Assembly (NCBI RefSeq): GCF_019704555.1
Contig: NZ_AP024745.1
Coordinates: 4,410,501-4,474,500, forward strand
Length of the DNA stretch: 64,000 nt
Source of the DNA: Actinoplanes sp. L3-i22
GTDB lineage: Bacteria; Actinomycetota; Actinomycetes; Mycobacteriales; Micromonosporaceae
Direction: 5' to 3'
Shown: piece after piece, positions 9,736-62,095 of the stretch
How positions within the stretch are numbered: position 1 is the stretch's first letter
Layout of the letters: each line of letters starts with the position of its first letter
Notes under the pieces: generated by a model
The model's input: the letters and a program-made list of their open reading frames with translations, nothing else
Told to the model about the DNA's origin: nothing
The model's database searches: none
Program-made: the position numbers and the translations under genes

Positions 9736-12345
9736 TCAGGACGCGTCCGCTGCGGCTCGGTTGTTCTCCAGGGTTCGGACGAGACGGGCTGCCTCGGTGG
9801 CGAGCCGGGTGGCGCCGCCCTGGGCGGCGATCGTCCTCACCTCGGGGATGTCGTCGGTGGCTTGAGTGGTGGCGGCTGCGGAGGCGGCGATCATCAGCAG
9901 ATCCGGTGTGCCCGCGGCTGGGCGGGGTGGAGTCAGGACGGTCGGGAGCAGAGTGCGGGTGAGGTCCCAGACGGCCGAGGCGGCGCCGGCCCGCAGCGCC
10001 TGCTGGAGGCTGTCGACCACCCGTTTCAGGACGATGACCTGGGCGGCTTCCAGCATGCCGAGTTCGTGGCCGACGATGGTGCCGTCGAGCAGGTTGCGGG
10101 CGGCCAGCGACACGAAGGCATCCACCGTGACCATCCGGCCCGCGGGTCGCCCGGCGGCCAGGCCGTACGCGAGGCACAGGGCCATCGCCGGGCCGAACGG
10201 GCCGTTGCCGGCCGCGACGGCGGGCAGGACGTGGAGCTGGTTGGCGTAGTCGCCGTCGGCGGCCATGGTGAGCAGGGGCAGCGCGTGGGCGGCGACCAGT
10301 TCGCGGTGGCCGGGCAGGATCATCGGCCACATGGTGATCGACTCGTCGTCGGGCAGGTAGCCGTAGGCGCGCTCGCGGGCGCTGGTGGCCGGCAGGCTCA
10401 ACAGCCCGTCGGGGACGGTCAGCGGCGGATGGGCGAACGCTTCGATGGCGACCGTACGTCGAAGTCGGGGTTGGTTGTAGCTGACGGGTCGTTCGGAGCT
10501 GATCGCCACGGCGGCCGGGTCGGGCAGGCCGCCGTCACGCAGCCATCCGGCGAACTGGCGGCCGGCGGGGGAGCGCAATCGCTCGGCCGCCGCCCGGGTC
10601 GGTGCGTCGACCTCGCGGGGCAGGCGGAGCAGGGCCTGTGCCAGGTCGTACGGGCCGGGCTGCCAGCCGTCGGATTCGGCGTTGGTGAGCAGGTCGAGGA
10701 CGCGGTGGGGGTCGACGTGGCCGTCGACGGTGGCGGGGGTGGCCAGCAACGCGGGTGGTGGCGTGCCGTACAGCTGCCCGGTCAGTTCGGTGACCCGGGC
10801 GTTGATCATCGTCCAGGCGGGGCTGGACAGTGGCGCCCCGCCGAACGAGGAGACCTGGTGCCGGGGTGGGCGTGGGCCGCGGTGCACGATGCCGTAGATC
10901 AGCCGGTCGACCAGCCAGCCGCCGTATTCGTCGAGCATCGGGGTGAGGATCGCGGCGAGAGCGGGCCGGTCGCCGTACGCGAATCGGGTTAAAGCGTCGA
11001 AGACGCGTTCCATCAGGATCGGGTCGAATGTTTCCCAGCGGTTGGCGGCCGCGGTCTCGCCGGCGAGTTCGCCGAGTGATGCGATCGATGGTGGCATCGC
11101 CGCCACCGGCGCGGGCGCCGGCAGCAGGACCAGCGAATCCTGCTCCTCGACGGTGGCCCCGGCCTGGCGCAGCACCTCCTGCGCCTGGCGACGCAGATCC
11201 CCCGCCAGGATCGTGGCGGCCTGGGCGAGCGGCTCCGGGCCGTAGGCGGTCAGGTGGGCGGCGGCCAGGTGCAGCGTCTGCTCGGCGAGGTCGACCGCCT
11301 CGTTGCCCAGCCCGGCCAGCAACGCCTCGTAGAGATCCGGGTCGGACCGGTCGGTCAGCACCGCGCCGATCCATTCGAGCATGGCCCGGACCAGCTTCTT
11401 CTCCTTGCGCGGCAGGACGGCGTAGGCGGCCTCGACGATCAGCTCGGGTTCGGCCCGGCCGCCGGCCTCGGCGACGCGCAGCGCCGCGAGCGCCAGGTCG
11501 GCCACCGCGACCGGCGGGCTGGACAGCATCGCCAGGTATTCCTGCCGGTGCTCGGCGCATTCCTCGAGCGTCGGCGCGAGTGCGCGGTGCAGGTCGGCCA
11601 TCGACTTGATCGACGCGGGGCGGTCCCCGGCACGTAGCCGCAGCAGGCAGCCGTCCAGGATCGTCCGGCGCGTCGCATCGTCGTCGGCGGCCAGCATGGT
11701 CAGGGCTTTCGGCCATTCCTCGTCGAGATGGGTGCCGAGGCGAGGAATGGCAAACAAATGCGGCAAAAGATCGGGGGTACGGGGATCAGCGCGCAAGCGA
11801 TCGATCAACTCCTCGGACCAGGCGCGTCCCTGCTGCTGGATCCAGCCGGTCAGGGTGGCCTCGGTCGGCGGGACCGGCAGTTGCGCCGCGTCCAGCAGGG
11901 CGCTGACGACCGGCCATTGGTCGACGGTCGTCGGTCGCATTTTCTGGGCCATGGACGTGGCGACGGCGGCGATCGAGGGCCGGCCGGGGGCCTGCAGGAC
12001 CCGCACCACCGACTCGGCGGACTCGGTATCGATGTGCAGCCAGGTGTCACGGAGCCGGGTGACGACGTCGGTGGCCCGGGGCAGCCCGGCGACGCAGGCC
12101 ACCGCGAGCGCGATCTTGCGCCGGCGCAGCAGGTCCCGATGCTCGTCGAGCGCCCGGGAGTTGGCGTGGTAGTTGGTGAAGTAGTCGCCGGTCGGCAGCG
12201 GCTCGGGCAGATGAGCCAGCTGGTGGTCCTTGAACTGCCCGGCCAGGGCACGGCGCTCGGTCTCCTGGCCGGCCACCATCAGCGCCGCTACGCCCTTGAT
12301 GTCGCCGGCCTCGATCCGCGCGAAGACCTCCTCGGCGTCGATCAC
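9736..12345 (-). CDS. DUF6493-family protein, partner of the SWIM protein
   Basis: 869 residues, alpha-helical and rich in Ala/Leu, consistent with a HEAT-like solenoid; no transmembrane segment or catalytic motif is seen. Early sequence 'DAEEVFARIEAGDIKGVAAL' and 'ALAGQFKDHQLAHLPEP' is typical of DUF6493 proteins as I know them. GTG 12345 overlaps the stop of the SWIM gene by 4 bp, and the preceding GGAAAGGAAGA provides the ribosome binding site, so the two are co-translated. The SWIM/DUF6493 pair recurs in actinobacteria; its role is unknown. The name of the family rests on memory. Confidence 0.7.
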   Translation of the reverse strand: MIDAEEVFARIEAGDIKGVAALMVAGQETERRALAGQFKDHQLAHLPEPLPTGDYFTNYHANSRALDEHRDLLRRRKIALAVACVAGLPRATDVVTRLRDTWLHIDTESAESVVRVLQAPGRPSIAAVATSMAQKMRPTTVDQWPVVSALLDAAQLPVPPTEATLTGWIQQQGRAWSEELIDRLRADPRTPDLLPHLFAIPRLGTHLDEEWPKALTMLAADDDATRRTILDGCLLRLRAGDRPASIKSMADLHRALAPTLEECAEHRQEYLAMLSSPPVAVADLALAALRVAEAGGRAEPELIVEAAYAVLPRKEKKLVRAMLEWIGAVLTDRSDPDLYEALLAGLGNEAVDLAEQTLHLAAAHLTAYGPEPLAQAATILAGDLRRQAQEVLRQAGATVEEQDSLVLLPAPAPVAAMPPSIASLGELAGETAAANRWETFDPILMERVFDALTRFAYGDRPALAAILTPMLDEYGGWLVDRLIYGIVHRGPRPPRHQVSSFGGAPLSSPAWTMINARVTELTGQLYGTPPPALLATPATVDGHVDPHRVLDLLTNAESDGWQPGPYDLAQALLRLPREVDAPTRAAAERLRSPAGRQFAGWLRDGGLPDPAAVAISSERPVSYNQPRLRRTVAIEAFAHPPLTVPDGLLSLPATSARERAYGYLPDDESITMWPMILPGHRELVAAHALPLLTMAADGDYANQLHVLPAVAAGNGPFGPAMALCLAYGLAAGRPAGRMVTVDAFVSLAARNLLDGTIVGHELGMLEAAQVIVLKRVVDSLQQALRAGAASAVWDLTRTLLPTVLTPPRPAAGTPDLLMIAASAAATTQATDDIPEVRTIAAQGGATRLATEAARLVRTLENNRAAADAS

Positions 12346-40646: not shown

Positions 40647-41414
40647 ATGTCCGGCGTGACACACCCCTCGGGGCACGAGCCGCCGGCCGGACAGCCGGCC
40701 GACTCTGCCTATTCACCGCCTGATCAATCGCCACCGCCCGGATACGCCCCGCCCGGATACGCCCCGCCCGGATACGCCCCGCCCGGTTATCCACCGCCTG
40801 GATATGGGCCGCCCGGATATGGGCCGCCCGGATATGGGCCGCCCGGTTATCCGCCGGGACCGGCGGGTGGATACGCGCCGCACGGTGGGTACTGGCCTTC
40901 GCCGGTCAGCCCGTCCGGTCAGCCGCTGAGCGACTTCGGTACGCGCTTGGTCGCGTACCTTATCGATTCGGTCGTTCTGGGTTTTGCTGTGGGCATCGTC
41001 GTCTTCCCGCTTCTGTTCCTGGTCGTCTTCCGGTTTGCCGACGGGATGGCGGACCCGGACCAGTTGGCAGACGATCAGTTCCCCGCGGCGTTCTTCATCA
41101 CGGTCTTCGCTGCGGAGTTCGGGCTGTTCCTGTTCAGCCTGCTCTGTCAGTACCTCTATACGGTCGAGCTGCTGGTGCGCTGGAACGGCCAGACACTCGG
41201 CAAGCGGATCATGAAGATCCGGGTGGTCAGCCTCCACCCCGGCGTGCCATTGACCAGGGGCATCGCGGCCAGGCGTTTCCTGTTGGTCGTCGCCGGCGTC
41301 TTCGTGCCGGTGCTGCCGCTGCTCGACGGTCTGTGGCAGCTCTGGGACAAGCCGTTCCGGCAGTGCCTGCATGACAAGGCGGCCGAGACAGTGGTCGTCA
41401 CGACCTCGGCGTGA
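40647..41414 (+). CDS. RDD-family membrane protein with Pro/Gly/Tyr-rich N-terminus
   Basis: 255 residues. The first ~100 residues are a disordered PPGY-type repeat tail; from ~105 an RDD domain has 'LSDFGTRLVAYLIDSVVLGF', three to four transmembrane helices and 'WNGQTLGKRIMKIRVVSLHP', with the Arg-Asp-Asp-type pattern partly kept as 'RLVAYLID'. RDD proteins are small polytopic proteins, probably transporters; the tail may bind proteins. ATG 40647 was preferred to GTG 40656. Confidence 0.85.
   Translation: MSGVTHPSGHEPPAGQPADSAYSPPDQSPPPGYAPPGYAPPGYAPPGYPPPGYGPPGYGPPGYGPPGYPPGPAGGYAPHGGYWPSPVSPSGQPLSDFGTRLVAYLIDSVVLGFAVGIVVFPLLFLVVFRFADGMADPDQLADDQFPAAFFITVFAAEFGLFLFSLLCQYLYTVELLVRWNGQTLGKRIMKIRVVSLHPGVPLTRGIAARRFLLVVAGVFVPVLPLLDGLWQLWDKPFRQCLHDKAAETVVVTTSA
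40735..40860 (+). repeat. 15-bp tandem repeat encoding PPGYA/PPGYG
   Basis: About eight imperfect 15-bp units (core CCGCCCGGATA plus CGCC or TGGG) run in frame in the RDD gene. Two sub-arrays differ in codon 5: one encodes PPGYA, the next PPGYG. Such arrays expand and contract by slippage, so length is likely to vary between strains. Confidence 0.85.
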
Positions 41415-49870: not shown

Positions 49871-50707
49871 TCAGGCCGGTCTTGGCTGGCTGTTGTGGCG
49901 CTGGGCCTGCAGCCGATGGTCGCGGATGGTCAGGTGAAGCAGGTCGCGGCACTCGGCCGGGCTGAGTACCGTGCCGGAGCGCTCGATGGCCCACAACAGG
50001 TGCGCCGGGCGGGTTCCGATGACGTTGACCGTGGGGTTGTCGCAGCGGCCGATGGTCGCCTGGTCGTGCATCAGCATCACCGCGGTGCGCACCGGAACCT
50101 GGTAGCCGTTGCGGGACAGCCAACTGGTGAGGTCGGCGGCGACGTCGAGGACCTGGCGGCCCCAGGTGCGGCCGGTGGCGTCGACCGCCCAGCCGCTGCC
50201 GACGGTGTGGCCCCGGGCGTCGAGTTTCTCGTACCACCACTGCTCGCCGGCCACGTGCAGGCGGACCCGGCGGCGTTTGACCTCGATGGCCCAGATGCCG
50301 GCCGGGCCGATCAGGACGTGGTCGGTTTCGCCGCGGCGGTTGTGGTAGCCGCGCAGCATCGTCCACGAGTCGTCCAGGGTGGCCAGGCCGTCGACCAGGG
50401 CCTGTTCGCCGAGCACTCCGGCGGCCTGCTGGCGGGCGCGGTCGGTGATCTGCTGGCGGTCCAGTTCGGCGTCGGTGACGCCCTGTGACGCGAACTGGAT
50501 GCGGGCGGCGGCCTGCTGCTCGGCGCCGCTGTTCAGGTGCAGGGCCCGGCGCCACCAGGACTTCGTACGCCGCAATTGTTGTAGGTCTTGATAGGCGTCG
50601 TAGTACTCCTCGCGGGCGGCGGCAACCGTCGTTTCCGCGCTGCGCAGGCGGCGGACCAGGCGGTGCAGCTGCTCGCCGCCGTGGTCGGACAGGACGTGGA
50701 TCTGCAT
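49871..50707 (-). CDS. NERD-domain (nuclease-related) protein
   Basis: 278 residues. After a charged coiled N-terminus (residues 1-~95) comes a NERD domain with 'VLGEQALVDGLATLDDSWTM', 'HVLIGPAGIWAIEVKRRRVR' (nuclease-like D...E-x-K), and 'TWGRQVLDVAADLTSW'. NERD proteins are thought to act on DNA or to bind it in mobile elements. The 3' end abuts the hydrolase relic. It starts 11 bp after the LysM-BTAD gene, same operon. Component of the dispersed element-like cluster. Confidence 0.8.
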   Translation of the reverse strand: MQIHVLSDHGGEQLHRLVRRLRSAETTVAAAREEYYDAYQDLQQLRRTKSWWRRALHLNSGAEQQAAARIQFASQGVTDAELDRQQITDRARQQAAGVLGEQALVDGLATLDDSWTMLRGYHNRRGETDHVLIGPAGIWAIEVKRRRVRLHVAGEQWWYEKLDARGHTVGSGWAVDATGRTWGRQVLDVAADLTSWLSRNGYQVPVRTAVMLMHDQATIGRCDNPTVNVIGTRPAHLLWAIERSGTVLSPAECRDLLHLTIRDHRLQAQRHNSQPRPA

Positions 50708-50718
50708 CGGGGCGCTCC

Positions 50719-52953
50719 TCACGGGTGGGTGAAGGTCAGGTTCTGCAGCAGGGCGGCGGCGAACCGGTCGGTGTCGGTGTCCGCGTCGATGCCGGCGTCG
50801 GCGAGCGCGCGGTGCAGCTGCTCGCGGCGGTGCCGCACGCCGTCGGCGTCGCCGAGGTCGGCGGCGGCCTGCATGGCGTGCCGGGCGAGCTCTTCGGACA
50901 TCGGGTCGTAGTCGCTGGCGGTCTCGTGCCACCCGCGGGCGGTCTGCGCGTCGGTGCCGGCGAGCAGGCCTGCGGCCTGCAGATGGATGCGGATCAGCAG
51001 GCGGCGGGCTCGCTCGCGGTCGGTGTCGATCCATTCGTACGCGGTGTCGGCGCCCAGCGTTCGCCCGGCGGCCGCGGTGATCGCCGTGCGCAGGTGCCGC
51101 AGCCGGGTCTGGTCGTCGCCGGCGGTGGTGGCGGCGCGGTGGGCGTCGACGATGCGCCACCAGTCGACGTCGACGAGTTCGGCGTTGAGGTGGTACCGGC
51201 CGCCGGTGTTGATCACCGGGTCGACGCGTGCGCCAGTGCGGTGGATCCCGCCGCGGATGATGTTGCGCAGGTTGGTGACGCAGGTGGAGAGCCGTTCGGT
51301 GGCGCGCGCGACGGTGACCTCGGGCCAGAGGGCTTCCATGATGTCGCCGAGGGCGATGCCGTCGCGGTTGAGCACCAGCAGCACGCACAGTTCGAGGCTT
51401 TTGGCGCGCAGGCCGCGCACCGGGTTGGCGTCGGCGCCCAGGATCGCGGGTTTGCCGAGGACCCGGATGCTGACCCGGTCCGGTGTGGGCGGCGGCGTGT
51501 GGACCGGGTCGGCGGGCGGCTTCGCGGCCTCGAGGAGGCCCGCGGCGGTGCCGGCGTCGAGCACGGCCAGTTCGCCGGCTTCGGTGCTGCCGTCGGCGGC
51601 GACGTTCAGGGTCAGCCCGGAGGGCCAGGCGCCGAGCAGGGTGACGTCGATGCCCAGCGGTTCGCCCTGGCGGGCGGCGGTGGCCAGCCGGGTGTGCCAG
51701 GCCGGGCCGGGCACCTCGGCCAGCAGCAGCATCGCCGGTGCGGGCGCGGCGCGCTCGTCGTCGCGTTCGTCGGCGAGCCGGGTGCGGCGGATGATCTCCT
51801 CGTCGAGCCGGGCCAGGGCGGCGGCGAAGTCGTCGGCGACGGTGATCCGGTCCGAGCTCGGGGCGTTGTCGAGCAGGCCGGCCAGCGTGGCGGTGGTGGT
51901 GACGGCGGTCGTGCCTTCCAGGGCGCCGGTGAGCACGGCGACCAGTGCGGCTCGGGCGGCGTCTTGGGCGCCGGGGCCGATCAGCGCGGTCGCCGGGTTG
52001 CGCGGCGGCAGGAACTGCGCCGGCCGGCCGGGTTCGCTCGGGACGGGCGTCTCGGGGGCCGGGTTCGCGGTGGTCGCGGTGGCTGCTTCGGCGGCGGGCC
52101 GTGGGCGGCGCCTGCGGCGCCAGAGCAGACCTGCGCCGTACGCGAAACCGGCCGTGAGCGTGAGTGCGGCGATGCTGGAGGTCGGCGCGGACCCGGTGTG
52201 GCTGCGGCCCGGCGATGCCGAAGGCGAGGCGGTCGTGGTCGTGGGTGCCGGGGTGGCCGGGGAGGCGTCGGGATCCGGCGTGTGCCGCGGTGGCTGGTGT
52301 GTGACGGTGGCGGGTTTGCCGGTGCAGTCGCCGGAGTCGGTGGTGGTGGCGCCGGTGGGCAGGCGCAGCTGCCAGCCGGGGTAGATCAGGTCCGGGTCGG
52401 TGAGCCGGCCGCCGACCGCCGGGAACTTCTTGCCGTGGTTGAGCTTGAAGATGGTCGGCCAGCGGTCCGGGTCGCCGAGGCGCTGTTTGGCGATCCTCGA
52501 CAGGGTGTCGCCCTTGGTGACCGTGCAGGCCGGGTCGGTCTGGGCCTTCTCGACGGCCGGCGTGTGGAAGGTGGCGGGCGCCGTGGGTGCGGCGGTGGCC
52601 GTCGGCGGGGCAGCGGCCGCGGCGGGGGAGTAGCTGGCGGTGACCGCGGCGGCGCCGAGAACGGTGGCGGCCAGGCTCTGCAGCGGTCCCGGCAGCTGCT
52701 GGATCAGGCGGCTGAGCCGGCCGGCCGAGCGGGCCGCGGCGAGCCGGACGGTGCCGGCGGCGGCCAGGGCCCAGCACAGCCAGGCGAGGGTGGCCAGCAG
52801 CCCGGGCAGGAACTGCGTCGCGGTCGGGTTCGCCAGCCAGGCCTGCAGATCGGCCGAGGTGGGTGCACGGGCGGGCAGCGGTGAGCCGGCCAGCGCGACG
52901 AGCCCGGCCGGCAGACCGGTGAGGATGACGAACAGGGTCAGGCCGGTGCGCAC
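50719..52953 (-). CDS. Membrane-anchored LysM protein with SARP/BTAD-like C-terminus
   Basis: 744 residues. GTG 52953 was chosen because GGGGGGAA precedes it by 5 bp; a longer reading has no ribosome binding site. Order: two to three membrane segments ('VILTGLPAGLVALAG', 'FLPGLLATLAWLCWALAAAG'), Pro/Ala-rich linker, LysM ('CTVTKGDTLSRIAKQRLGDP', 'RLTDPDLIYPGWQLRLP', residues ~150-210), Thr/Pro-rich linker with another TM ('AALTLTAGFAYGAGLLW'), then ~400 residues ending in a BTAD-type helix-turn-helix/TPR part ('VRGLRAKSLELCVLLVLNRD', 'LWPEVTVARATERLSTCVTN'). Such proteins are common in actinobacterial integrative elements; peptidoglycan sensing linked to transcription is inferred. Confidence 0.8.
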   Translation of the reverse strand: MRTGLTLFVILTGLPAGLVALAGSPLPARAPTSADLQAWLANPTATQFLPGLLATLAWLCWALAAAGTVRLAAARSAGRLSRLIQQLPGPLQSLAATVLGAAAVTASYSPAAAAAPPTATAAPTAPATFHTPAVEKAQTDPACTVTKGDTLSRIAKQRLGDPDRWPTIFKLNHGKKFPAVGGRLTDPDLIYPGWQLRLPTGATTTDSGDCTGKPATVTHQPPRHTPDPDASPATPAPTTTTASPSASPGRSHTGSAPTSSIAALTLTAGFAYGAGLLWRRRRRPRPAAEAATATTANPAPETPVPSEPGRPAQFLPPRNPATALIGPGAQDAARAALVAVLTGALEGTTAVTTTATLAGLLDNAPSSDRITVADDFAAALARLDEEIIRRTRLADERDDERAAPAPAMLLLAEVPGPAWHTRLATAARQGEPLGIDVTLLGAWPSGLTLNVAADGSTEAGELAVLDAGTAAGLLEAAKPPADPVHTPPPTPDRVSIRVLGKPAILGADANPVRGLRAKSLELCVLLVLNRDGIALGDIMEALWPEVTVARATERLSTCVTNLRNIIRGGIHRTGARVDPVINTGGRYHLNAELVDVDWWRIVDAHRAATTAGDDQTRLRHLRTAITAAAGRTLGADTAYEWIDTDRERARRLLIRIHLQAAGLLAGTDAQTARGWHETASDYDPMSEELARHAMQAAADLGDADGVRHRREQLHRALADAGIDADTDTDRFAAALLQNLTFTHP

Positions 52954-52980
52954 GAGACGTTCCCCCCAGCGTCGGCGACC

Positions 52981-53017
52981 GGGGCCGCTTCGGCCCCGCC
53001 TAGCCGACGACGCTAGG
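52981..53017. promoter_or_regulatory. Paired hairpins upstream of the LysM-BTAD gene
   Basis: GGGGCCG (52981-52987) pairs with CGGCCCC (52991-52997), and CCTAGC (52999-53004) with GCTAGG (53012-53017). They lie 28-64 bp upstream of the GTG start of the LysM-BTAD gene, in its leader. They could be a terminator/attenuator or regulator sites. Confidence 0.4.
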
Positions 53018-53101
53018 TGCGGATCAGTCGTAATGGCTGGTCCGGGCACCTGACAGCACCCTTACAAACTGCCGGATCCGGTCCCCGTCACGCGGCGGTG
53101 T

Positions 53102-54895
53102 TCAGCGCGGGAAGCCGGGACAGCTCCAGGCGGCGAGCTGGTCCGCCTGCGGGGCGCGGCCCTGGGCTCGCAGTGCCAGGTAGACGGCACGCACCAGATC
53201 GGGACGGGTGGTCAAGGCGGTGGCGGCCGCCCGCTCGCCCAGTTCTCCGCAGGACAGTCCCAGGCCGGTCCACGACACGAGATCATCGGGGTCGGTGGTG
53301 ATGCCGGTGAGAAACTCGGCTTTGGCGGCGGCGGCGTCGCCGGCGATGAGTGCGCCCACGGGTGTATCGGCGACCGTCGGCTCGATGACCGCCGCGCGCA
53401 GGGGCCGGCTCCAGGTTCGCGAAACCTGGGGCGCTTCGGTGGGCGCTTGGATGACGGCGGCGTCGGTATCGCTCTGGTCGGCCGGCTCGCCCGCCGACCA
53501 GCAGCGCACGAGTGCCGCGATCGCCTGCGGCGCGGGTCTTCGATGGTGCAGCAGCCACGTGCTGCGGTGCGCGTGCAGGGCCAGGGCGACCAGCCGGCTC
53601 ACATCATCGGGTATCCGGTCGTCGAACCATGGGCGCATCGCTGCGGCCAGGCCGGCGAAGAATTGCTCGCCCACCTCGGTGAGCCCGCCCGAGCGCCGGG
53701 CGACCTCGAGGCCGGTGGCGGTCTGTGCTCGGCTGAGGGCGTAGGCGAACTGGGCCACCCGACGTTCGGGACCCTCGGTCACGCGGGTGTGCTTGCGGTA
53801 GAAGGCGGCGATGCCGTGGAACGCGAAGACCCCTTGGACCAGTCCGCCGAGCGGCCGGGGGTCGTCACGCCAGGGCGCATACAGCTCGGCGCGGCCCTCC
53901 TGGCGGTGCAGCGGGCACAAGTGCATGAGTCCACCCAGCTTGATGTGCTGGTATTCATGCACGAGCGTGGCTGCCAGATCAACCGGGTTGGTCGGCGATG
54001 ACAGCACCACCGCGCCGAAGGCCTCCGCCGTGGAGGCACTACGGATCTCCTCGTCGTCGTCCTGATCGGCTCGGGCCAGCGGCGCGAAGGAGCGGACCCC
54101 GCACACGATGGCCTGGGCGGTCGGTGGATCGGTTTCGGACAGCAGGGTCCAGGCCTGGTCGAGCATCGTCTGCCAATGCGCGACCTCGTTCGCGGTCAGC
54201 CGTTCGGGTTCGACCGGATCGGCGAGATTGCGGAACGGGTCAAGATCATCCAGGACCAGCTCCAGGGTGGGCTTCGCGCCGGTGGTCAATCTGCGCAGCC
54301 CGTGCCAGCCGTCGTCGTCGCGTCGCGGATCGTCCGGTACCGCGACGGTCCTGGCGTCGTGGGTCAGCCGGATGCGTCCGCCGGAGGTCATCGCGGTGAC
54401 CGAGTCCCAGGGTCGGTGCGTTTCGAAAGCGGCTTGCCCCAGACCGGGCAACGTCGCCCGGCCGCGGCGCAGTGGTATCCGGGTCCGCCAGCTCTGCCCG
54501 CAGCGGGCCGCCACGACCAGGGCGACGGCGTGGATCTGCCCGAAGTCCACCCAGGCCGGTGCCGGATCGGTTCCGGATCGTGCGTGCTGCTGGCGGATCG
54601 CATAGGCGGCCCAGTTGCCGATCTGGGGATGCATGAGAGCGGACCGGAAATTTTCCGGGTCGTCGGCCTTGGCCCGGTCCATGACCGCCCAGGCCTCGTC
54701 GATCGGGGGAAGCGGCCCGAGCAGCGCGGTCCCCATGTCGCGTACGGCCAGCAGCAGGAGCAGCCGGCGACTGTACTGGGTGTCGGCCAGGAACTGAACG
54801 GTCTGTGGGCTGCCGCCGCCAGTTGCAAGATCAGCCAGCAGTGCACGAGAGAGTCGATGGTTGGCCGGGGCAGCCCAATCATTGATCATCGTCAC
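53102..54895 (-). CDS. aKG-HExxH-type peptide beta-hydroxylase (FxSxx-type system), stand-alone
   Basis: 597 residues. The N-terminus 'HRLSRALLADLATGGGSPQT' and 'YSRRLLLLLAVRDM' and the middle 'ANEVAHWQTMLDQAWTLLSE' match the HExxH domain often fused to FxsB-type radical SAM enzymes. The metal motif is H313-E-Y-Q-H317 in 'LAATLVHEYQHIKLGGLMHL', followed by 'ELYAPWRDDPRPLGGLVQGV' with 'FAFHGIAAFYR', all family marks. Such proteins use iron and 2-oxoglutarate to beta-hydroxylate residues of ribosomal peptides. No radical SAM domain is fused. The C-terminal ~100 residues look TPR-like. Diverges from the NB-ARC/TPR gene (207 bp apart). Confidence 0.9.
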   Translation of the reverse strand: MTMINDWAAPANHRLSRALLADLATGGGSPQTVQFLADTQYSRRLLLLLAVRDMGTALLGPLPPIDEAWAVMDRAKADDPENFRSALMHPQIGNWAAYAIRQQHARSGTDPAPAWVDFGQIHAVALVVAARCGQSWRTRIPLRRGRATLPGLGQAAFETHRPWDSVTAMTSGGRIRLTHDARTVAVPDDPRRDDDGWHGLRRLTTGAKPTLELVLDDLDPFRNLADPVEPERLTANEVAHWQTMLDQAWTLLSETDPPTAQAIVCGVRSFAPLARADQDDDEEIRSASTAEAFGAVVLSSPTNPVDLAATLVHEYQHIKLGGLMHLCPLHRQEGRAELYAPWRDDPRPLGGLVQGVFAFHGIAAFYRKHTRVTEGPERRVAQFAYALSRAQTATGLEVARRSGGLTEVGEQFFAGLAAAMRPWFDDRIPDDVSRLVALALHAHRSTWLLHHRRPAPQAIAALVRCWSAGEPADQSDTDAAVIQAPTEAPQVSRTWSRPLRAAVIEPTVADTPVGALIAGDAAAAKAEFLTGITTDPDDLVSWTGLGLSCGELGERAAATALTTRPDLVRAVYLALRAQGRAPQADQLAAWSCPGFPR

Positions 54896-54944
54896 AGGTC
54901 CAATCTGCTGTTCAGCCGTTATTCGGTCATGTTTTCCGGCGCCT

Positions 54945-54961
54945 GATCACCGATCGTGATC
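54945..54961. promoter_or_regulatory. Palindrome in the divergent promoter of the HExxH and NB-ARC genes
   Basis: GATCAC (54945-54950) and GTGATC (54956-54961) around CGATC, inside the 206-bp region between the two divergent starts at 54895 and 55102. A shared operator is possible. Confidence 0.4.
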
Positions 54962-55101
54962 GTACGGCTGGGCGAACTTTCTTCGACGATCATCCACGTC
55001 CGCCGGTACCGAATTGCGGAGGCGAAACGGGCGGCTGTCTTCGCTAGTCTGGGGCGATGGAGAAGTGAGCGGCATGTGATCTTGTTTTCGATGGAGTCGT
55101 G

Positions 55102-58100
55102 ATGGTGCAGGTGACAAGATCCACCGATGGTGGCTTTGCCACGCCGCCATATTCCGAGGTCACGATCGGCATCGTCGCCGCGTTGTGGATCGAGGGGCTG
55201 GCGATGCGAGCGCTCATTCCGGACGTCATCCCGCTGCCTCCGATTGCCAGTGACCCGAATCATTATCACGTCGGCCGGCTGCCGAGCAGTCAGGGAAATC
55301 GTCAGCACACCGTTGTCCTGACCACGATGCCGCGCGACAGCACGCGCAATGCCGCGGCGATCTGTACGAACCTGATTCGCAGCTTTCCGCAGGTCCAGTG
55401 CGTGATAATGGTGGGTATCGCGGGTGGCATACCGGTGCCCGGCCGGCCGCACCGGCATGTGCGGCTGGGCGACATCGTGGTGGCCACCGACGGGGTGGTC
55501 GACTGCAGTCACGTCCGGCAGGTCGACGGCGTCGCCACGCCGCGTCGGCACCTGGAAGGCATGTCGGAGGCGATGGCGCGGGCCGTGATGGAGTTGCGCG
55601 GCGACGAGTTCCGCGGCGAACCGCGCTGGCGCACGTGGCTGGAGGTCGGGCACCGCCGCGACCTGATGAACTTCGCGCGGCCCAAACCCGGTACCGACGT
55701 GCTCAATGTGCGCGGGGAACGCGCGCGTCATCCCAGCCGGGCGGCTTCCGGCCATGAGCCCGGCTGGCCGAAGGTGCACTACGGCTCGATCGCCAGCGGC
55801 GACATCCTGCTGCGCGACGAGGTCAAACGTGACCAGCTGGCCGCCGAGCACGGTGTGCTGGCCGTCGAGATGGAAGCCTCGGGAATCGCGGCCGGCGCGG
55901 CCACCCTCGGCAAGCACTGGTTCATGATCAGAGGCGTCGTCGACTACTGCGACAACGCCGGCAAGAGCGATCTGTGGCATCCGTACGCGTCGCTGGCCGC
56001 CGCCGCCTATCTACGCGCGATGCTTGCTGCTTGCCACCCGTTCGAGTCGGGCGCGCCAACCGGGGCCGGCAACGGCGCCGAGATCGATGTGCTCGGTGAG
56101 CGACGCGTGGTGCGTACCGGCCTGCGTTGCCAGGACGCCGCCCAAGACCTGGTGAAGAGTGACTTCTGGGAGAGTCTGTCCAACCGGCGTAGCTTCATCA
56201 ACGTCTTGCGCACCAAGGTCCCGCTCGACCTGCCCACGCTCGCGGAGTCCGACCCGGCCACCCACCTGAATACGGCGTTCACCCAGGCGCTGGACCGGCC
56301 CGAAGGGGTGGTGGCGGTCCTCGACTCGCTGGAGGCCATGCCGGCGCAGGCGCAGGTCGAGACGGCCGTGCACATCCTGGAGCAGTTGACTGTTCGGGAT
56401 CTGCTACCCGGGCAGGCCGGGCCCGAGCTGATGCGTATCCTGTCCGAGGCTCCGCCGGTGGATATGACCGATGTTGCGGCGTCCCACAACGACGTCCAGG
56501 TGCATGCCGGTGCTGTGCCGGCGTCGCCACAAGCGGCGTTTGACCAGGTGCTGGACTCTTTCGCGCATCGAAGGAACGCCAGGACCCTGCTAGCGATGGC
56601 CGATCAGCTCGGCCAGGCGGTCAGCGATGAGGCGTTGCGCGCCAGGCTCGTTCGGTGGCGCAAACAGATCGCGACACACCTGGGTGTCGAGGGCGCCGTT
56701 GTCTGGAATCCGATCCACAGGGGCCGCCTGGTTTCCGCGTTGAGCGATCCCGGTACCCCTGCCGTAGATACGAGGGCCGTGGGAGTTGTCCAAGAGGTGA
56801 CGGATATTATGGCAAAATCGGACGTTGTGCGCGAAACACAAGTCTCGACCCTCACGGCGGCGCCCGTCGACCTCCTCGGCCCCAACCCGGCCGAGGCAGC
56901 GATTCCGGCCGGAAGCCAGCCGCCTGGAATCGCACCGCGGGCGTTGCCGCCGGTTTGGGGAAATGTGCCCCCGAGAAATCCTCATTTCACCGGGCGGAGA
57001 GCCCTGCTCGATGATCTAGCCGACCGCTTGCGTAGAACCGAGATGACAGCGGTTCTCCCGCAAGCAATTCATGGCATGGGTGGCGTCGGTAAGTCGCAAC
57101 TCGCCATTGAATACGTTTATCGCTACCAAAGCCAGTACGACGTCATCTGGTGGATTTCGGCCGAACAGCCGCAACAGATTCTTGCCGCGCTGACGGACCT
57201 GGCGCGATATCTCGACCTTCCGGTCGGGCCTGAGGCGAATGCGGCAGTTCCCGCTGTCCGGGAAGCGCTTCGTCTCGGCCGGCCGTACAGCAATTGGCTA
57301 CTTGTCTTCGACAACGCCGAGGACCTGGACGCCGTCCAGAATGTTGTTCCCACCGGCGGCCGCGGGAAGGTGCTGGTCACCTCACGCAACGCCGACTGGT
57401 CACTGCAGGCCAACACCCTTGAGGTTGACGTCTTCGACCGCGACGAAAGCGTCAACCTGCTGCGCCGCCGCGATCCCGACATCACCGACAACGACGCCGT
57501 GCAGCTGGCTGAGGCGCTCGGCGACCTGCCGCTGGCCATCGAGCAGGCGGCCGCGTGGCGGGTCGCGACCGGAATGACCGCCGCCGAGTATCTGAGCCTG
57601 CTCAAGAGCCGGGTCGAGCTGCTCGGCGCCACCGCGTCACCCGGATACGAGCCGTCGGTCGCGGCAGCGTGGAAGATGTCGCTGGACCGGCTGCGCAACA
57701 CCAGCCCGGCGGCCATGCGACTGCTGGAGATCTGCGCCTTCCTGGCTCCGGAGCCGATCATCCGGGCCCTGTTCTCCAACGCTGGAGCATCCGGGCGCGC
57801 CGATGACGCCGACGAGTTCGAGCTGGCGCTGCGGGACCCGATCAAACTCAACAAAGCCATCCGTGACATCCAGCGATATGCGCTGGCCCGGATCAATCAC
57901 CGCGCGGGAACCATCGAGATCCACCGATTGGTGCAGGCCGTGGTTCGCGATGGCGTCGAGGCCGATCGCCTCGATGAGGTGCGCCACCGGGGACACCAGC
58001 TGCTCGCCGCCGCAGATCCGCGCGAGCCCGACACGGTCGCCCACTGGGACCGGTACCAGGCGCTGATCTCGCACGTGCTGGCCTCGAACGCGGTTCAGTG

Positions 58101-59436
58101 CGACGACCCGTGGGTTCGCGACCTCGTCTTCGACATCGTGAAATTCCTCTACCGGTGGGGAGATCACGAGGGCTGCGAACGACTGGCCCGAGACGTCTAC
58201 GAGGCCTGGCGGATCAGTCTCGGCGCCGATTCGCCGGAAACGCTGAAGGTCGCGAAATACTACGGCTACATCCTGTGGGCGAACGGAAAATTCCGTGCGG
58301 CGCGAAAGATCGGAGAAGAGACGCTACGCCTGTATGAGGAGGGCGGTTTCGATCCCGGTGACGAGGACCTGATCGACGCAAAACTGCAGTTCGCCCGCGA
58401 CCTGCACACTGCCGGCCGATTCGCCGAGGCGACCGCGGCGGTCCGCGAGGCGTTCGCCGCGGCCCGGCGCGCGTTGACCCCGGAGGACCCGAAGACCCTC
58501 TACGCCGCACACCAGCTGGGCCTCAGTCTCCGGCTCGAGGGCAGGTTCGAGGACGCGCGCGTGATCGATGAGGAGACCCTGCGCCTGCGTATCGAGGTGC
58601 TCGGCGCCGACGATTTCGAAACGCTGAATACGCACAATGGGCTGACCATCGACCAGCGCGAGTGCGGCGACTACACCGGTGCCCGGCAGAACCAGGAGAA
58701 CGTGTTCGCCCAGCATCGCCTCAAATGGGGAGAATACAACCCCGCAACGACAAGAGCCGGCCGAAATCTGGCCGTTGCCCGGCGTAAGGCCGGCGAACAC
58801 GCCAGTGCTCTTGAACTCAGCCGGGAAATCGAGAAACGCTTCCGCGACCGATATGGCGAGCGTTACCCCGACACCGTCGCCTCCGCCATGAATCTTGCCG
58901 TGGATCTACGGCAGAACGGCGACCTGATCGGAGCGAAAGCCCTCGGTGAAAAGACCCTGGGGATCTACGAGTCGCTGTTCAGCCGGGATCACCCGTTCGC
59001 GTTGTCGGCGCGTACCAACCTTGCCATCACCTTGCGGCTGCTCGGTGAGACCGCCAAAGCGAAGAGCTTTGACCACGAGGCGCTCGAAGGTCTGCAGGCC
59101 GCGATCGGCGCCGACCATCCGCTGGCCATCACCGCCGCCACCAACCTGGCCAGTGACCACTACGCGTTGGGTGAGTATCAGATCGCCTTCGAACTCGACA
59201 CCGACACTCTTGATCATTCTCGCCGGGTTTCCGGCGACGAACATCCCTCGACCTTGGCGGTCATGGCCAACCTGGCCCTCGATCTGCGGGCGCTGGGTCG
59301 AGTCGGGGAAGCCGACGCGCAGCACCAGGATGTCGTCGACAAATACCGGCGCAAACTCGGTGTGGGGCACCCTGCCACGGTGGCGGTGAGCCGGCACCTG
59401 CGGGCGGACTGCGACATCGACCCGATGCCGATCTGA
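55102..59436 (+). CDS. MTAN/PNP-like nucleosidase fused to FxsT-like NB-ARC ATPase and TPR array
   Basis: 1444 residues; GGAG 5 bp before ATG 55102. Residues 1-~310: nucleoside phosphorylase/nucleosidase fold with 'TIGIVAALWIEGLAMRAL', 'CVIMVGIAGGIPVPG', 'VEMEASGIAAGAA' and 'MIRGVVDYCDNAG'. Residues ~330-600: helical linker/effector-associated-like. Residues ~630-960: NB-ARC STAND ATPase, 'FTGRRALLDDLADRLR', Walker A 'HGMGGVGKSQLAIEY' (GMGGVGKS 658-665), Walker B 'NWLLVFDNAEDLD', 'LPLAIEQAAAWRV'. Residues ~1000-1440: TPR repeats with 'LGL-x-LR-x-x-GR' units. NB-ARC and TPR look like FxsT of FxSxx-COOH systems; the nucleosidase head is extra and resembles effector domains of NLR-like antiphage proteins. 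Next to the HExxH hydroxylase (divergent) and a precursor-like peptide gene (convergent). Confidence 0.88.
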   Translation: MVQVTRSTDGGFATPPYSEVTIGIVAALWIEGLAMRALIPDVIPLPPIASDPNHYHVGRLPSSQGNRQHTVVLTTMPRDSTRNAAAICTNLIRSFPQVQCVIMVGIAGGIPVPGRPHRHVRLGDIVVATDGVVDCSHVRQVDGVATPRRHLEGMSEAMARAVMELRGDEFRGEPRWRTWLEVGHRRDLMNFARPKPGTDVLNVRGERARHPSRAASGHEPGWPKVHYGSIASGDILLRDEVKRDQLAAEHGVLAVEMEASGIAAGAATLGKHWFMIRGVVDYCDNAGKSDLWHPYASLAAAAYLRAMLAACHPFESGAPTGAGNGAEIDVLGERRVVRTGLRCQDAAQDLVKSDFWESLSNRRSFINVLRTKVPLDLPTLAESDPATHLNTAFTQALDRPEGVVAVLDSLEAMPAQAQVETAVHILEQLTVRDLLPGQAGPELMRILSEAPPVDMTDVAASHNDVQVHAGAVPASPQAAFDQVLDSFAHRRNARTLLAMADQLGQAVSDEALRARLVRWRKQIATHLGVEGAVVWNPIHRGRLVSALSDPGTPAVDTRAVGVVQEVTDIMAKSDVVRETQVSTLTAAPVDLLGPNPAEAAIPAGSQPPGIAPRALPPVWGNVPPRNPHFTGRRALLDDLADRLRRTEMTAVLPQAIHGMGGVGKSQLAIEYVYRYQSQYDVIWWISAEQPQQILAALTDLARYLDLPVGPEANAAVPAVREALRLGRPYSNWLLVFDNAEDLDAVQNVVPTGGRGKVLVTSRNADWSLQANTLEVDVFDRDESVNLLRRRDPDITDNDAVQLAEALGDLPLAIEQAAAWRVATGMTAAEYLSLLKSRVELLGATASPGYEPSVAAAWKMSLDRLRNTSPAAMRLLEICAFLAPEPIIRALFSNAGASGRADDADEFELALRDPIKLNKAIRDIQRYALARINHRAGTIEIHRLVQAVVRDGVEADRLDEVRHRGHQLLAAADPREPDTVAHWDRYQALISHVLASNAVQCDDPWVRDLVFDIVKFLYRWGDHEGCERLARDVYEAWRISLGADSPETLKVAKYYGYILWANGKFRAARKIGEETLRLYEEGGFDPGDEDLIDAKLQFARDLHTAGRFAEATAAVREAFAAARRALTPEDPKTLYAAHQLGLSLRLEGRFEDARVIDEETLRLRIEVLGADDFETLNTHNGLTIDQRECGDYTGARQNQENVFAQHRLKWGEYNPATTRAGRNLAVARRKAGEHASALELSREIEKRFRDRYGERYPDTVASAMNLAVDLRQNGDLIGAKALGEKTLGIYESLFSRDHPFALSARTNLAITLRLLGETAKAKSFDHEALEGLQAAIGADHPLAITAATNLASDHYALGEYQIAFELDTDTLDHSRRVSGDEHPSTLAVMANLALDLRALGRVGEADAQHQDVVDKYRRKLGVGHPATVAVSRHLRADCDIDPMPI

Positions 59437-59459
59437 CGGTATCGGTGGCGTGGTGCTGT

Positions 59460-59495
59460 CCCGGGCCGGTTCACACCAGTGTGAGCAGGCCCGGG
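59460..59495. terminator. Long imperfect hairpin between NB-ARC gene and peptide gene
   Basis: CCCGGGCC (59460-59467) pairs with GGCCCGGG (59488-59495), and an inner TCACAC (59471-59476) pairs with GTGTGA (59479-59484). It lies between the convergent stops at 59436 and 59508, so it terminates both transcripts. Confidence 0.75.
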
Positions 59496-59507
59496 CCCCA
59501 CGCCGGA

Positions 59508-59684
59508 TCAGTCCACCCGGCCCGGCGGGCCCGTGCTGAGGTTGTACCGCGGGCGGGTGACTTGCCGTAGAAGTTCTTCGAGGTACGGCTCGAACTGCGT
59601 GCGATCACGCTTGCTCAGCTCCCCGAGCGGGACATCTCGGATGTCAACCACCTGGGTCTCGATATCGGCTTGCGGCTCATCCAC
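59508..59684 (-). CDS. Small FxsA-like RiPP precursor candidate
   Basis: 58 residues from GTG 59684, with AGAAGGG 9 bp upstream, a good ribosome binding site. The N-terminal part 'TQVVDIRDVPLGELSKRDRT' resembles FxSxx-COOH precursors in its D-x-x-V-P-L-x-x-L-x-x-x-D pattern; then an acidic/leucine helix and the C-terminal 'PRYNLSTGPPGRVD' in place of the usual F-x-S-x-x end. Size, leader pattern and location beside the HExxH hydroxylase and FxsT-like ATPase suggest it is the substrate peptide. Family assignment is by eye and not proved; it could also be a small regulatory protein. Confidence 0.65.
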   Translation of the reverse strand: MDEPQADIETQVVDIRDVPLGELSKRDRTQFEPYLEELLRQVTRPRYNLSTGPPGRVD

Positions 59685-60274
59685 GCAGCTGCACCCTTCT
59701 ACGTGACTGTCGTACTGCCCGCCTTCCCTAGCATCATGCCCACAACCACCGCGGTTGCGGTAGGTGCGGCTGCGCCGGCGACCGGCGGATCGATCCGGGC
59801 ACCGGGCCTGACCTGGCATTCACGCTGGTGAACCTGGCTGCGTGGGGGCGCCCGACGATCGCGCCCGATCGCGATCGTCAGCTGTCGGGGTCCTTGCGGC
59901 GGCGAAGCCACCACGAACGGGAGCCGGCGACGACAGCAGCGGCCGGCGGCACCGGAACACCCGGTGCAACGTCGGCCGAGCGGACGATCTCGTAGGCCAG
60001 ACCGAGAACGAACATCAACTCGGCGACCGAAATGCGCATCCTGCGCCCACGAATGCAGAACCCGGTGTCTACTCGATCGGTATTGCCGCGCGCAATGAAC
60101 CGCCGGGTGGGCGCTCGGCCGGCGCGGGCCGCGATCCGCTGCTGTTGGTGCCTTGACCTGCGCAGAACTGGCTCTGCGACATTGCCGTGCACGGTTTGAG
60201 GAGATCACCAAGAGGAAGGCGGCGGTCGATCTCGGGACTGACGCCGGTGGCGTTCATCTGTTTGACTGTGATCT
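59685..60274. other. Intergenic region with only one weak small ORF
   Basis: 590 bp between the peptide gene (minus) and the Hsp70-like gene (plus). It should contain the promoters of both. Apart from the 53-codon frame at 59878-60039, described separately, nothing coding is supported. Confidence 0.5.
59878..60039 (-). CDS. Possible small membrane-associated peptide
   Basis: 53 residues from ATG 60039, preceded by GCAGG. 'RISVAELMFVLGLAYEIVRS' is a hydrophobic helix; the tail is Pro/Ala/Val-rich and ends 'SRSWWLRRRKDPDS' with a Trp pair followed by Arg/Lys. It lies on the same strand as the precursor-like peptide gene, which begins about 190 bp further downstream. Its codon bias is acceptable, but no homologue is recognised, so it may be spurious. 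Confidence 0.3.
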   Translation of the reverse strand: MRISVAELMFVLGLAYEIVRSADVAPGVPVPPAAAVVAGSRSWWLRRRKDPDS

Positions 60275-62095
60275 ATGCAGTTCGGAGCGCCGCGTTTGGC
60301 GATCGACTACGGCACCGCCTGCACCCGTGCGGTTGTCGCCGGCCCGGACCGGTCCTGGCAGGCCCTCACGATCGACGGTGCGCCGGAACCGGCCAACGTC
60401 GCACACATCGATGCCGGCGGGCAGATCACCGTCGGCAACCCGGCCTGGCGGCTGGCGCTCAGCGACCCGGACGGTTTCGTCGGCGCCCCGCTGAGCGAGG
60501 GCAGCGCCACCATCACCCGCAACGGCCGCGAGGTCGAGGTGTGCGAGCTGGTCGCGGCGATGCTGCGGCTGGTCGCCGACGAGGCGACCCGGGTGCTGGG
60601 TGAGCTGCCCGCCGACATCCGGCTGACCGTGCCCGCCGGGTGGGGGCCGCGCCGGCGCACCTGGCTGCGCAAGGCCGCGTATCAGGCCGGACTCGGGCAG
60701 CCGAGCATGATCGAGGCGCCGGTCGCGGCCGCCAACCATCAGCTGCTGGCCGGCAACCAGCTGCCGGTCGGCGCGTTCGTGCTGGTCTGTGACCTGGGCG
60801 CGACGGCCGAGGCGAGCGTGTTGCGGCGCGGGCCGCTGGGCTTCGAGGTGCTCTCCACCCTGGCCGACGCGCACGCCGGCGGGCAGGCCATCGACGAACT
60901 GCTGGCCGGCGCGCTGCTCGTGCCGGCGGGCACGGCCAACGGCCGACCGTCGTGGCCGGTGCTGGCCAGTGTCCGTACGGGAAAGGAAGCTGTTTCTTTT
61001 GAAGCGGCCGTCAGCGTGCCGTTGCCGCCGCCGGATCCCGCCGTCGTGATCAACGCCGCGCAGGTCGAGCAGGTCGCCGAGCCGGTGCTGCGCCGCGCCG
61101 CCGACCTGGCCGCGGCCGCCGTGCAGGCCGCCGAGCTCACCACCGCCGACCTGGCCGCGGTCTACGCCGTCGGCGGCACCGCCACCATGCCGGCCACACA
61201 GCGGATCCTGCAAGAACGGCTCGCCGTCGCGGTGCAGACGGTGGCAATGCCGGGCGCGGCGGCCGTGCTCGGCGCCGCCGACGCGGCCGGCACCACCGCC
61301 GCGGCCGGCGACGTGGCGCCACCGCCGGCCCCGACGCTGCGCGGCCTGCTCGCCCTGCTGGTGCCCGGGGTGCTGTCGCTGACCCTGTTCACCCACTTCG
61401 TGTTCTCCGCCGAGTTCAGCGGCTCCCGGGTGCTGCACCTGCGGCCCTGGTGGGTGTGGGCCAACTACGGCGAACTGGCCATCGCCGGGCTGCTGGCGCT
61501 GATCGTGTGCCTGGGCTTCGGTCCGCTGGCCGGCACGATCCTGGCTCGCGACCAGCGGCTGCGGGGCCGCTTCGACGGCGCCGGGCAACTGTCGGCCGGC
61601 ATGTTCACCGCGGTCGCCGTCACCGCGGCGATCTGCGCGGTGTACGCGGTGCTGGCCAGCCTGTACTTCGTCCTGCCGTTCGGCCTGCAACTGCGCTGGG
61701 CGCTGCTGCCGATCCTGCCGGCCGCGCTGCTCGCGCTCGCCGTCACCGTGCTGGTGCGCCGGCGCCCCGCCGTGCTCGCCGAGAGCTTCCCGATGCTGCC
61801 GGTCCTGCTGATCGGCGGCGGCGACCTGCTGTTCGCCTACACCATCAGCTCCCGGCATCTGCCCTGGCTGCACGTGCTGTACCTGGTCGGCGAACGCGCC
61901 GGCGTCGCCCTGGTCGGGGTCGGCATCGCGATCCTGCTGTTGCGGATCGTGCTGCTGCGCGCGATCGCGGCGGTGATCCTCGGCGGTCTGGGCTTCTTCA
62001 TCGCCGACTACCGGATGAGCAACGTCCTGGGTGTCGCGGTCGCGCTCGCCGTCGCCGGCTGGTGGGCGCAGCGCCTGTGGAGCATGCTGCGGTGA
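60275..62095 (+). CDS. Membrane-anchored Hsp70/actin-fold ATPase-like protein
   Basis: 606 residues. N-terminal Hsp70/actin-like ATPase: 'RLAIDYGTACTRAVVAGPD' (phosphate 1), 'DIRLTVPAGWGPRRRTWLRK', 'VLVCDLGATAEASVLRRGPL' (phosphate 2) and 'VYAVGGTATMPATQRILQE' (adenosine loop). From ~350 on come about seven transmembrane helices ('LRGLLALLVPGVLSLTLF', 'LLALIVCLGFGPLAGTI', and so on) instead of a substrate-binding domain. No nucleotide-exchange or J-protein partner is in the window. It overlaps the next gene by GTGA and ends the dispersed element-like cluster together with it. Confidence 0.8.
   Translation: MQFGAPRLAIDYGTACTRAVVAGPDRSWQALTIDGAPEPANVAHIDAGGQITVGNPAWRLALSDPDGFVGAPLSEGSATITRNGREVEVCELVAAMLRLVADEATRVLGELPADIRLTVPAGWGPRRRTWLRKAAYQAGLGQPSMIEAPVAAANHQLLAGNQLPVGAFVLVCDLGATAEASVLRRGPLGFEVLSTLADAHAGGQAIDELLAGALLVPAGTANGRPSWPVLASVRTGKEAVSFEAAVSVPLPPPDPAVVINAAQVEQVAEPVLRRAADLAAAAVQAAELTTADLAAVYAVGGTATMPATQRILQERLAVAVQTVAMPGAAAVLGAADAAGTTAAAGDVAPPPAPTLRGLLALLVPGVLSLTLFTHFVFSAEFSGSRVLHLRPWWVWANYGELAIAGLLALIVCLGFGPLAGTILARDQRLRGRFDGAGQLSAGMFTAVAVTAAICAVYAVLASLYFVLPFGLQLRWALLPILPAALLALAVTVLVRRRPAVLAESFPMLPVLLIGGGDLLFAYTISSRHLPWLHVLYLVGERAGVALVGVGIAILLLRIVLLRAIAAVILGGLGFFIADYRMSNVLGVAVALAVAGWWAQRLWSMLR

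Follow-up and report, generated by a model that had tools for sequence, protein, structure and literature searches.

A candidate radical-SAM-independent, RxD-type peptide-processing conflict system with a fused PNP-NB-ARC-TPR protein in Actinoplanes sp. L3-i22

Analysis of a 64,000-nucleotide stretch of DNA (hereafter the window; positions 4410501-4474500 of the single 12.01-Mb contig of Actinoplanes sp. L3-i22) revealed a three-gene locus composed of a stand-alone HExxH enzyme gene (53102-54895, minus strand, 597 residues), a divergently oriented gene for a 1444-residue protein (55102-59436, plus strand), and a gene for a 58-residue precursor peptide convergent with the latter (59508-59684, minus strand). 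The intergenic region between the two divergent genes (54896-55101) presumably holds a promoter region that they share. We propose that the locus is a stripped-down conflict system resembling NOD-like receptors (NLRs), in which an RxD-type (Arg-x-Asp) peptide is processed independently of a radical S-adenosylmethionine (SAM) enzyme, a purine nucleoside phosphorylase (PNP)-type domain is the effector and the modified peptide C-terminus is the switch, a proposal that we regard as evenly poised between right and wrong. An initial annotation had described a stand-alone hydroxylase-family enzyme, a protein with nucleosidase, NB-ARC and tetratricopeptide repeat (TPR) parts, and a peptide with an FxsA-like leader as one unit without a radical SAM gene, all of which is borne out below; its further assignment of the unit to an FxSxx-like system with the radical SAM enzyme missing is not.

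The HExxH protein matches the TIGR04267 mod_HExxH family at 164.5 bits (cut-off 40), with an intact motif at residues 313-317 and a helical C-terminal region. In an alignment of 37 sequences, the window enzyme included, the H, E and H of the motif and the APWRDDPRP stretch that follows are invariant. The AlphaFold model of the enzyme (predicted local distance difference test score 90.7) matches the solved HExxH structures SjiH (22ob, E 1e-21) and ChlH (8s5f, E 5e-8), and because no other solved structure was matched at E <= 0.001, the modeled fold makes an iron/2-oxoglutarate (alpha-ketoglutarate, aKG) oxygenase more likely than a protease. A literature search for SjiH gave no relevant paper. 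That such proteins are instead zinc metallopeptidases, which would here hydrolyze the precursor to release a C-terminal peptide, is the view of Kaur et al. 2020 (PMC7159879, in the section concerned, citing Haft and Basu 2011), and it would suit both the HExxH motif itself and the hydrolysis of a C-terminal ARMD by the aKG-HEXXH enzyme PflC when the leader is missing. On the full precursor, however, PflC and PosC are described as needing aKG (PMC12636437, preprint), and among solved structures the model is nearest in fold to SjiH and the aKG oxygenase ChlH, leaving hydrolysis an improbable explanation.

The large protein matches the FxSxx_TPR model NF040586 end to end over its NB-ARC-to-TPR stretch (56965-59433, plus strand, as are all its parts) at 870 bits (cut-off 300), and Pfam recognizes PNP_UDP_1 (48.8 bits, cut-off 25.1), NB-ARC, DUF7779 and TPR in it. 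The NB-ARC (AP-ATPase/STAND) domain (57004-57468) retains an intact P-loop, GMGGVGKS, and is followed by DUF7779 (57691-57966). The PNP domain (55153-56037; Pfam match over residues 54-288) folds like methylthioadenosine/S-adenosylhomocysteine nucleosidase (MTAN) and futalosine hydrolase in structure comparison, and an alignment of 23 sequences, that of the window among them, shows no variation at residues E31, E258 and D281, so that both the fold and the catalytic Glu/Glu/Asp set of the PNP/MTAN superfamily (PF01048) are present. We take these residues to be MTAN E12, E174 and D197, aligned by eye; E12 and D197 stand in the titles of 1z5n and 1z5o. Given this fold and these invariant residues, the domain is likely an active N-glycosidase. 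It also matches the PN-superfamily effector model of PADLOC (1.6e-13).

Between the PNP and NB-ARC domains lie a degenerate EAD2-like adaptor domain (56140-56376) and a VMAP-M0-like region (56377-56703), both recognized by profile match to the N-termini of relatives in which the PNP and NB-ARC parts are encoded by separate genes. EAD2 (PF19956) has no Pfam match in the window protein at E <= 1, and in its ortholog from Actinoplanes sp. NBRC 103695 (locus L011) it falls below the cut-off (12.5 bits versus 23.8). Using hhalign, with a query side of two sequences only, the middle region aligned with the EAD2-VMAP-M0 N-termini of 12 split-gene proteins at 99.5% probability in local mode (E 4e-22) and 99.8% in global mode (E 5e-28), and at the level of sequence profiles the region is homologous to EAD2-VMAP-M0.

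The peptide gene is, by comparative sequence analysis, a real gene. It starts with GTG, as does its 59-residue L011 homolog at the homologous codon; the two products share 39 of 58 residues, and both genes carry a ribosome-site-like AGAAGG/AGAAAGG (AGAAGG at 59695-59700, minus strand, in the window). Changes between them fall 14/7/33 over the three codon positions, rich in third positions, with Nei-Gojobori (NG86) nonsynonymous and synonymous divergences of dN 0.22 and, close to saturation, dS 1.90. With the window and L011 peptides left out of its construction, a family profile retrieved the window open reading frame (ORF) at E 9.3e-17 among 8006 small ORFs; a leader-only profile made likewise, with the last 18 residues cut from every ORF, did so at E 1.4e-4. 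Our first profiles (E 2.8e-18 and 1.4e-10) had the window peptide among their ten seeds, and these values are therefore partly circular. We considered a chance ORF and dropped it, the E values being beyond chance with or without the window seed and its ortholog. A shared-word search of a set of 5.8 billion proteins returned only the window peptide itself; its relatives came as ORFs in related loci.

Conservation was assessed over 80 loci, the window and 79 relatives. The relatives were selected by similarity to the window enzyme, the top 80 of 351 confirmed ones being kept (79 distinct), a selection that leaves the radical-SAM-fused subfamily under-represented. Flanks of up to 10 kb per side were inspected; some contigs are shorter, the sequence of L011, for example, stopping 421 bases past the large gene. 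L011 has orthologs of all three genes in the layout of the window, its enzyme being 61% identical. Across the set, an iterated profile found 91 peptide family members in 77 loci, and an NB-ARC-TPR match occurs in 71. Nearly all of the peptides (89, in 75 loci) lie within 2 kb of an HExxH gene; in the window and L011 the large gene stands in between and the distance is 4.6 kb. FxsB queries matched no radical SAM gene in any of the 80 loci (phmmer, E <= 1e-6, ORFs of at least 90 residues), while FxsB-type loci (L116-L119) were strongly matched by the same queries; within this subfamily the absence of a radical SAM gene is thus the rule.

The window peptide ends in NLSTGPPGRVD, and the predicted site of modification is its terminal PPGRVD (59511-59528, minus strand), an end whose conservation is seen in the family and whose role as the site would follow from parallels in PMC12636437 and PMC13060819, set out below. 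The peptide has no FxSxx end, and comparison with the NCBIfam models, among them TIGR04268, gave no match at E <= 10. An R-x-D end is present in 62 of the 91 distinct peptides (0.74 when the last 14 residues are shuffled), and the leader-only control profile, with 82 distinct matches in 72 loci, finds it in 59 of these versus 21 of 7924 other small ORFs. The residue before Arg is Gly in 30 of the 66 peptides ending in R-x-D or R-x-E, and otherwise Gln, Glu, Lys, Ser or others. Precursor number and tail vary among relatives: L060 has three and L050 two Gly-rich precursor ORFs ending in AERIG or AERID before one HExxH gene, with no NB-ARC-TPR match in the flank, and seven Streptomyces loci (L055, L061, L062, L066, L085, L086, L089) each have, separated by a few kb, one HExxH-peptide pair per strand, the two tails of a locus being different (GGYNPQRDA and AERFD, for instance, in L062 and L066).

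Relatives differ in how nucleosidase and receptor are joined. Homologs of von Willebrand factor A (vWA) and/or VMAP-C proteins occur in 55 of the 80 loci, and in L017 and L021 PNP, VMAP-M0 and VMAP-C form one gene. Twelve loci have an EAD2-bearing NB-ARC-TPR protein and, in the flank examined, no vWA, MoxR or VMAP-C; ten of these have a separate PNP gene, encoding PNP-EAD2 in all three tested with Pfam (L012, L014, L033), and the two NB-ARC proteins so tested (L012, L014) read EAD2-VMAP-M0-NB-ARC-DUF7779-TPR. L063 has no PNP match, and at L015 an EAD2-only small gene (11708-12016, minus strand) stands where relatives have PNP-EAD2, which may reflect effector loss or a bare adaptor. The window and L011 represent a third form with PNP and NB-ARC-TPR in a single protein; L016 and L041 have the NB-ARC-TPR part only. 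Searches with the L017 parts (phmmer, E <= 1e-6) found no vWA, MoxR or VMAP-C in the window, L011 or the 12 split-gene loci. The rest of the window genome holds one sub-threshold piece of VMAP-C and two EAD2 domains, the latter within 5 kb of FxsB genes.

These sequences are most simply read as the joining, in one chain, of two proteins that in relatives have EAD2 domains in common, a fusion that would give Rosetta-stone support to the principle of recruitment through effector-associated domains set out in passages of PMC7159879 and PMC8195603. In the NB-ARC tree the 14 split and fused forms lie on one side of a branch with SH-aLRT support of 99. In the enzyme tree the split-type loci L033, L052 and L063 are set apart, L052 as a long branch, and an approximately unbiased (AU) test chosen after the tree had been seen disfavored a single split-type group (p 0.016), which together suggest that partners have been exchanged. 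The trees covered 50 of the 80 loci and all 32 loci with PPGR/PPTR/PGQR tails, the receptor tree comprising 28 of these 32 (L016, L025, L042 and L047 yielded no usable NB-ARC-TPR ORF). Among the 32, the penultimate residue of the peptide, V/I versus A, tracks receptor type in 31: V or I in 13 of 14 split or fused forms, A in 18 of 18 others. Mapped onto the 28-locus receptor tree this distribution requires two changes, and onto the 32-locus enzyme tree four; it amounts to one independent pair, and both AU tests (p 0.016 and 5.7e-5) were post hoc. The pattern hints that the receptor reads the peptide tail, with events too few for a test.

FxSxx-COOH systems, with parts named fxsA, fxsB, fxsC and fxsT, are among the closest known ones. 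The window shares with them (TIGR04268, TIGR04269, NF040586) the FxsT-like NB-ARC-TPR protein, the FxsA-like leader and the HExxH domain family, and differs in having neither FxsB nor an FxSxx end at the locus, in its stand-alone HExxH enzyme and in its N-terminal PNP domain; TIGR04268 has matches elsewhere in the genome. Loss of the radical SAM gene from an FxSxx locus, as the initial annotation had it, is rejected by the missing FxSxx end, the missing TIGR04268 match and the RVD tail, which fits the RxD type.

That type comes from the in silico survey of Kaur et al. 2020 (PMC7159879), in whose relevant section the systems pair an HExxH-type protein, there called a zincin-like metallopeptidase, with a small diverging protein. 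By their C-termini these small proteins fall into FxSxx, RxD, acidic and FtsH-linked types, of which the FxSxx and FtsH-linked ones are named with a radical SAM gene. There, AP-ATPases with TPRs are always present alongside VMAP systems, and RxD peptides are strictly tied to the VMAP ternary system, the AP-ATPase then being fused to the vWA protein. Like that RxD type, the window has a small, variable RxD precursor near an HExxH gene, an AP-ATPase with C-terminal TPRs, and no radical SAM gene. The window departs from that type in that no vWA, MoxR or VMAP-C gene and no vWA-fused AP-ATPase was found in it, its PNP domain is fused through the EAD2/VMAP-M0-like segment, and its gene order is rearranged. 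The same section mentions standalone actinobacterial systems, which share with the window the peptide-processing genes and a similar AP-ATPase without a VMAP system; theirs carries an inactive MinD/ParA-like domain, for which Pfam gave no match in the window, and no PNP fusion appears in that section. Some overlap with the standalone systems is possible, since the passage does not give their peptide type. A VMAP-free, PNP-fused variant of the class described in 2020 is apparently new; the radical-SAM-less arrangement itself is not. The literature searched, which covered few subscription papers, held no PNP-EAD2-NB-ARC-TPR protein with an RxD peptide.

Outside peptide systems, a search for PNP, NLR and phage in combination gave no paper. 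The PNP-type ATP nucleosidase domain of Detocs is an anti-phage effector that acts behind two-component-like sensing; compared with Detocs, the window has an NB-ARC-TPR module and a peptide. Fungal PNP_UDP NLR proteins, as described in part of PMC4986451, likewise place a PNP effector N-terminal to a STAND NTPase and repeats, and the window protein differs from them in being bacterial, in its adaptor segment and in its linked peptide gene.

The chemistry can be predicted from recently characterized enzymes. In the passages of PMC12636437, PflC and PosC hydroxylate Gln, remove a C-terminal ARMD and leave an amide, and the A91G variant of PosC, ending in GRMD, undergoes partial backbone cleavage with an alpha-hydroxy-Gly product. 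In those of PMC13060819 (preprint), a conserved R(V/T)DN end is preceded by a Pro that PesO hydroxylates and that is present only alongside the HExxH gene. The PflC/PosC systems resemble the window in enzyme family and in a C-terminal tail of small residue-R-x-D, and differ in their nitrile-hydratase-like leader, their partner of the MNIO (multinuclear nonheme iron-dependent oxidative enzyme)-nitroreductase kind and, in these passages, the lack of a reported NB-ARC protein; the chemistry of the window enzyme is a prediction. Since the window tail, S-T-G-P-P-G-R-V-D, has Gly at the PosC cleavage position, Pro before it and an R-x-D end, we would expect, by analogy, Pro hydroxylation or oxidation at PPG and/or oxidative loss of GRVD. 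Cleavage of this kind may be limited to this branch, given that Gly occupies that place in 30 of the 66 R-x-D/E peptides. A competing account, to which we allow not much less than an even chance, is that the enzyme only beta-hydroxylates residues such as Pro or Asn of an intact tail: PesO hydroxylates a Pro, a ChlBH-type enzyme is described as hydroxylating Asp and His, and the window core has Pro-Pro and Asn, set against the partial cleavage of the GRMD variant of PosC and the Gly that the window has at the same place. The HExxH enzyme is the only modifying enzyme recognized at the locus, in line with the initial annotation; its suggestion that hydroxylation is the only modification is not established, oxidative tail cleavage being about as plausible.

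In the mechanism that we propose, the HExxH enzyme would bind the FxsA-like leader and oxidize the peptide C-terminus, where Pro-Pro-Gly adjoins Arg-Val-Asp; the TPR end of the NB-ARC protein would read the processed C-terminus and the protein would thereby be held off or switched on; NB-ARC assembly would then activate the N-terminal PNP nucleosidase, which would deplete or convert a nucleotide pool so that the infected or stressed cell stops. The PNP domain, covalently fused here, sits in relatives on a separate protein that has an EAD2 domain in common with the NB-ARC protein, or within the VMAP protein. A more specific version, which we think unlikely as it stands, is that the RxD tail marks the peptide for processing by the enzyme, which alpha-hydroxylates Gly55 (possibly the prolines as well) on the way to a C-terminal amide, giving a peptide state dependent on O2, iron and 2-oxoglutarate that the TPRs of a PNP-armed bacterial NLR would sense.

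Regulatory or developmental signaling, with the modified peptide as signal and the NB-ARC-TPR protein as an AfsR-like regulator, is a rather doubtful alternative to defense. It draws on a weak similarity of the NB-ARC part to AfsR (36 bits, cut-off 1430), on the actinobacterial distribution of the family and on a LysM protein with a sub-cut-off BTAD match that adjoins the HExxH gene. Against this, NCBIfam and Pfam recognize no DNA-binding domain in the fused protein, the modular effectors (PNP-EAD2, VMAP) are of the kind seen in conflict systems, and none of the 79 related loci matches the LysM/BTAD neighbor at E <= 1e-20.

Several observations weigh against the proposed conflict system. PNP is not constant, being matched in 28 of the 80 loci, and therefore the other loci must use something else; nine loci have no NB-ARC-TPR match, four of them (L032, L045, L050, L060) with the full 10 kb on both sides; the iterated profile gave no peptide in L026, L054 and L070; and 29 of the 91 peptides lack the R-x-D end. 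Apart from the PNP effector model, no PADLOC model matched in the window. The Arg, Met and Asp of ARMD are each dispensable alone in PosC (PMC12636437, in the passages concerned), so that RxD may not be what the enzyme reads, and other enzymes are described as also acting on the Asp and Asn in the R(V/T)DN end of pes precursors (PMC13060819). The V/I versus A pattern reflects few evolutionary events and was noticed post hoc. Finally, FxsB is found in 55 of 70 genomes of the bacterial family that carry the enzyme versus 170 of 284 non-carriers of that family (Fisher p 0.0035, phylogeny ignored), a carrier being defined by the enzyme, as a genome with an HExxH match at E <= 1e-60.

This last association bears on a further explanation, namely that an FxsB encoded elsewhere cross-links the peptide in trans, which would make the locus an FxSxx satellite. 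The window genome has four FxsB genes over the cut-off, none of them in the window, and with the positive co-occurrence this partly realizes the outcome that the initial annotation had named as telling against it. However, 15 of the 70 carriers have no FxsB at E <= 1e-60, among them G053, where the enzyme gene (locus L092) is accompanied by a PNP-EAD2 gene and a peptide with GPPGRVD; a trans-acting FxsB-type radical SAM enzyme is therefore not required, and we dropped the need for one. The peptide, moreover, has no TIGR04268 match, and L003 and L004, both FxsB loci, have their own peptides, so that action in trans is very improbable. In the FxSxx type, peptides come with a radical SAM gene according to the section of Kaur et al. 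2020 (PMC7159879). We note a second radical-SAM-less set in the window genome, at 3107-9540 of L137 (G000:C1:1061000-1080900), with a peptide over the FxSxx-COOH cut-off that ends in AGFNSAL (9352-9540, minus strand), a stand-alone HExxH gene (7667-9340, minus strand), a gene for a GGDEF-EAL protein and one matching FxSxx_TPR at 783 bits; the 19.9 kb of L137 gave no match to FxsB queries, and none of the four over-cut-off FxsB genes lies within 100 kb.

The neighbors of the cassette seem not to be shared with relatives. The LysM/BTAD gene (50719-53049, minus strand) lies 52 bases downstream of the HExxH gene on the same strand and is followed by a gene for a NERD nuclease-related protein (49871-50608, minus strand). 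Past the peptide gene, a protein with an Hsp70-like ATPase domain and a hydrophobic, membrane-like C-terminal region (60275-62095, plus strand) has a weak relative in L052. When the flanking ORFs were compared with the 79 loci (BLASTP, E <= 1e-20), no L011 ORF was among the matches listed, up to five per ORF. The window has no Rfam family and no tRNA gene; at 40734-40856 a 15-base unit, CCGCCCGGATATGCG, recurs some eight times and may be a coding repeat rich in Pro, Gly and Tyr.

The locus represents a minimal three-gene version of a larger actinobacterial class of conflict systems, on which our literature searches found no experiments. It runs counter to the strict tie between RxD peptides and VMAP stated in PMC7159879, though the section concerned does mention standalone systems. 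One enzyme, one peptide and one NLR-like protein make a set small enough to reconstitute, and the role of the modified peptides is therefore directly testable. The tail sequence makes a sharp chemical prediction that links the family to recently characterized aKG-HExxH enzymes. If the Gly55 reading were true, a nucleotide-depleting immune response would be coupled to the metabolic state of the cell or its oxygen state, or to interference by phage with that state, and the RxD peptides of actinobacteria would be endogenous NLR ligands.

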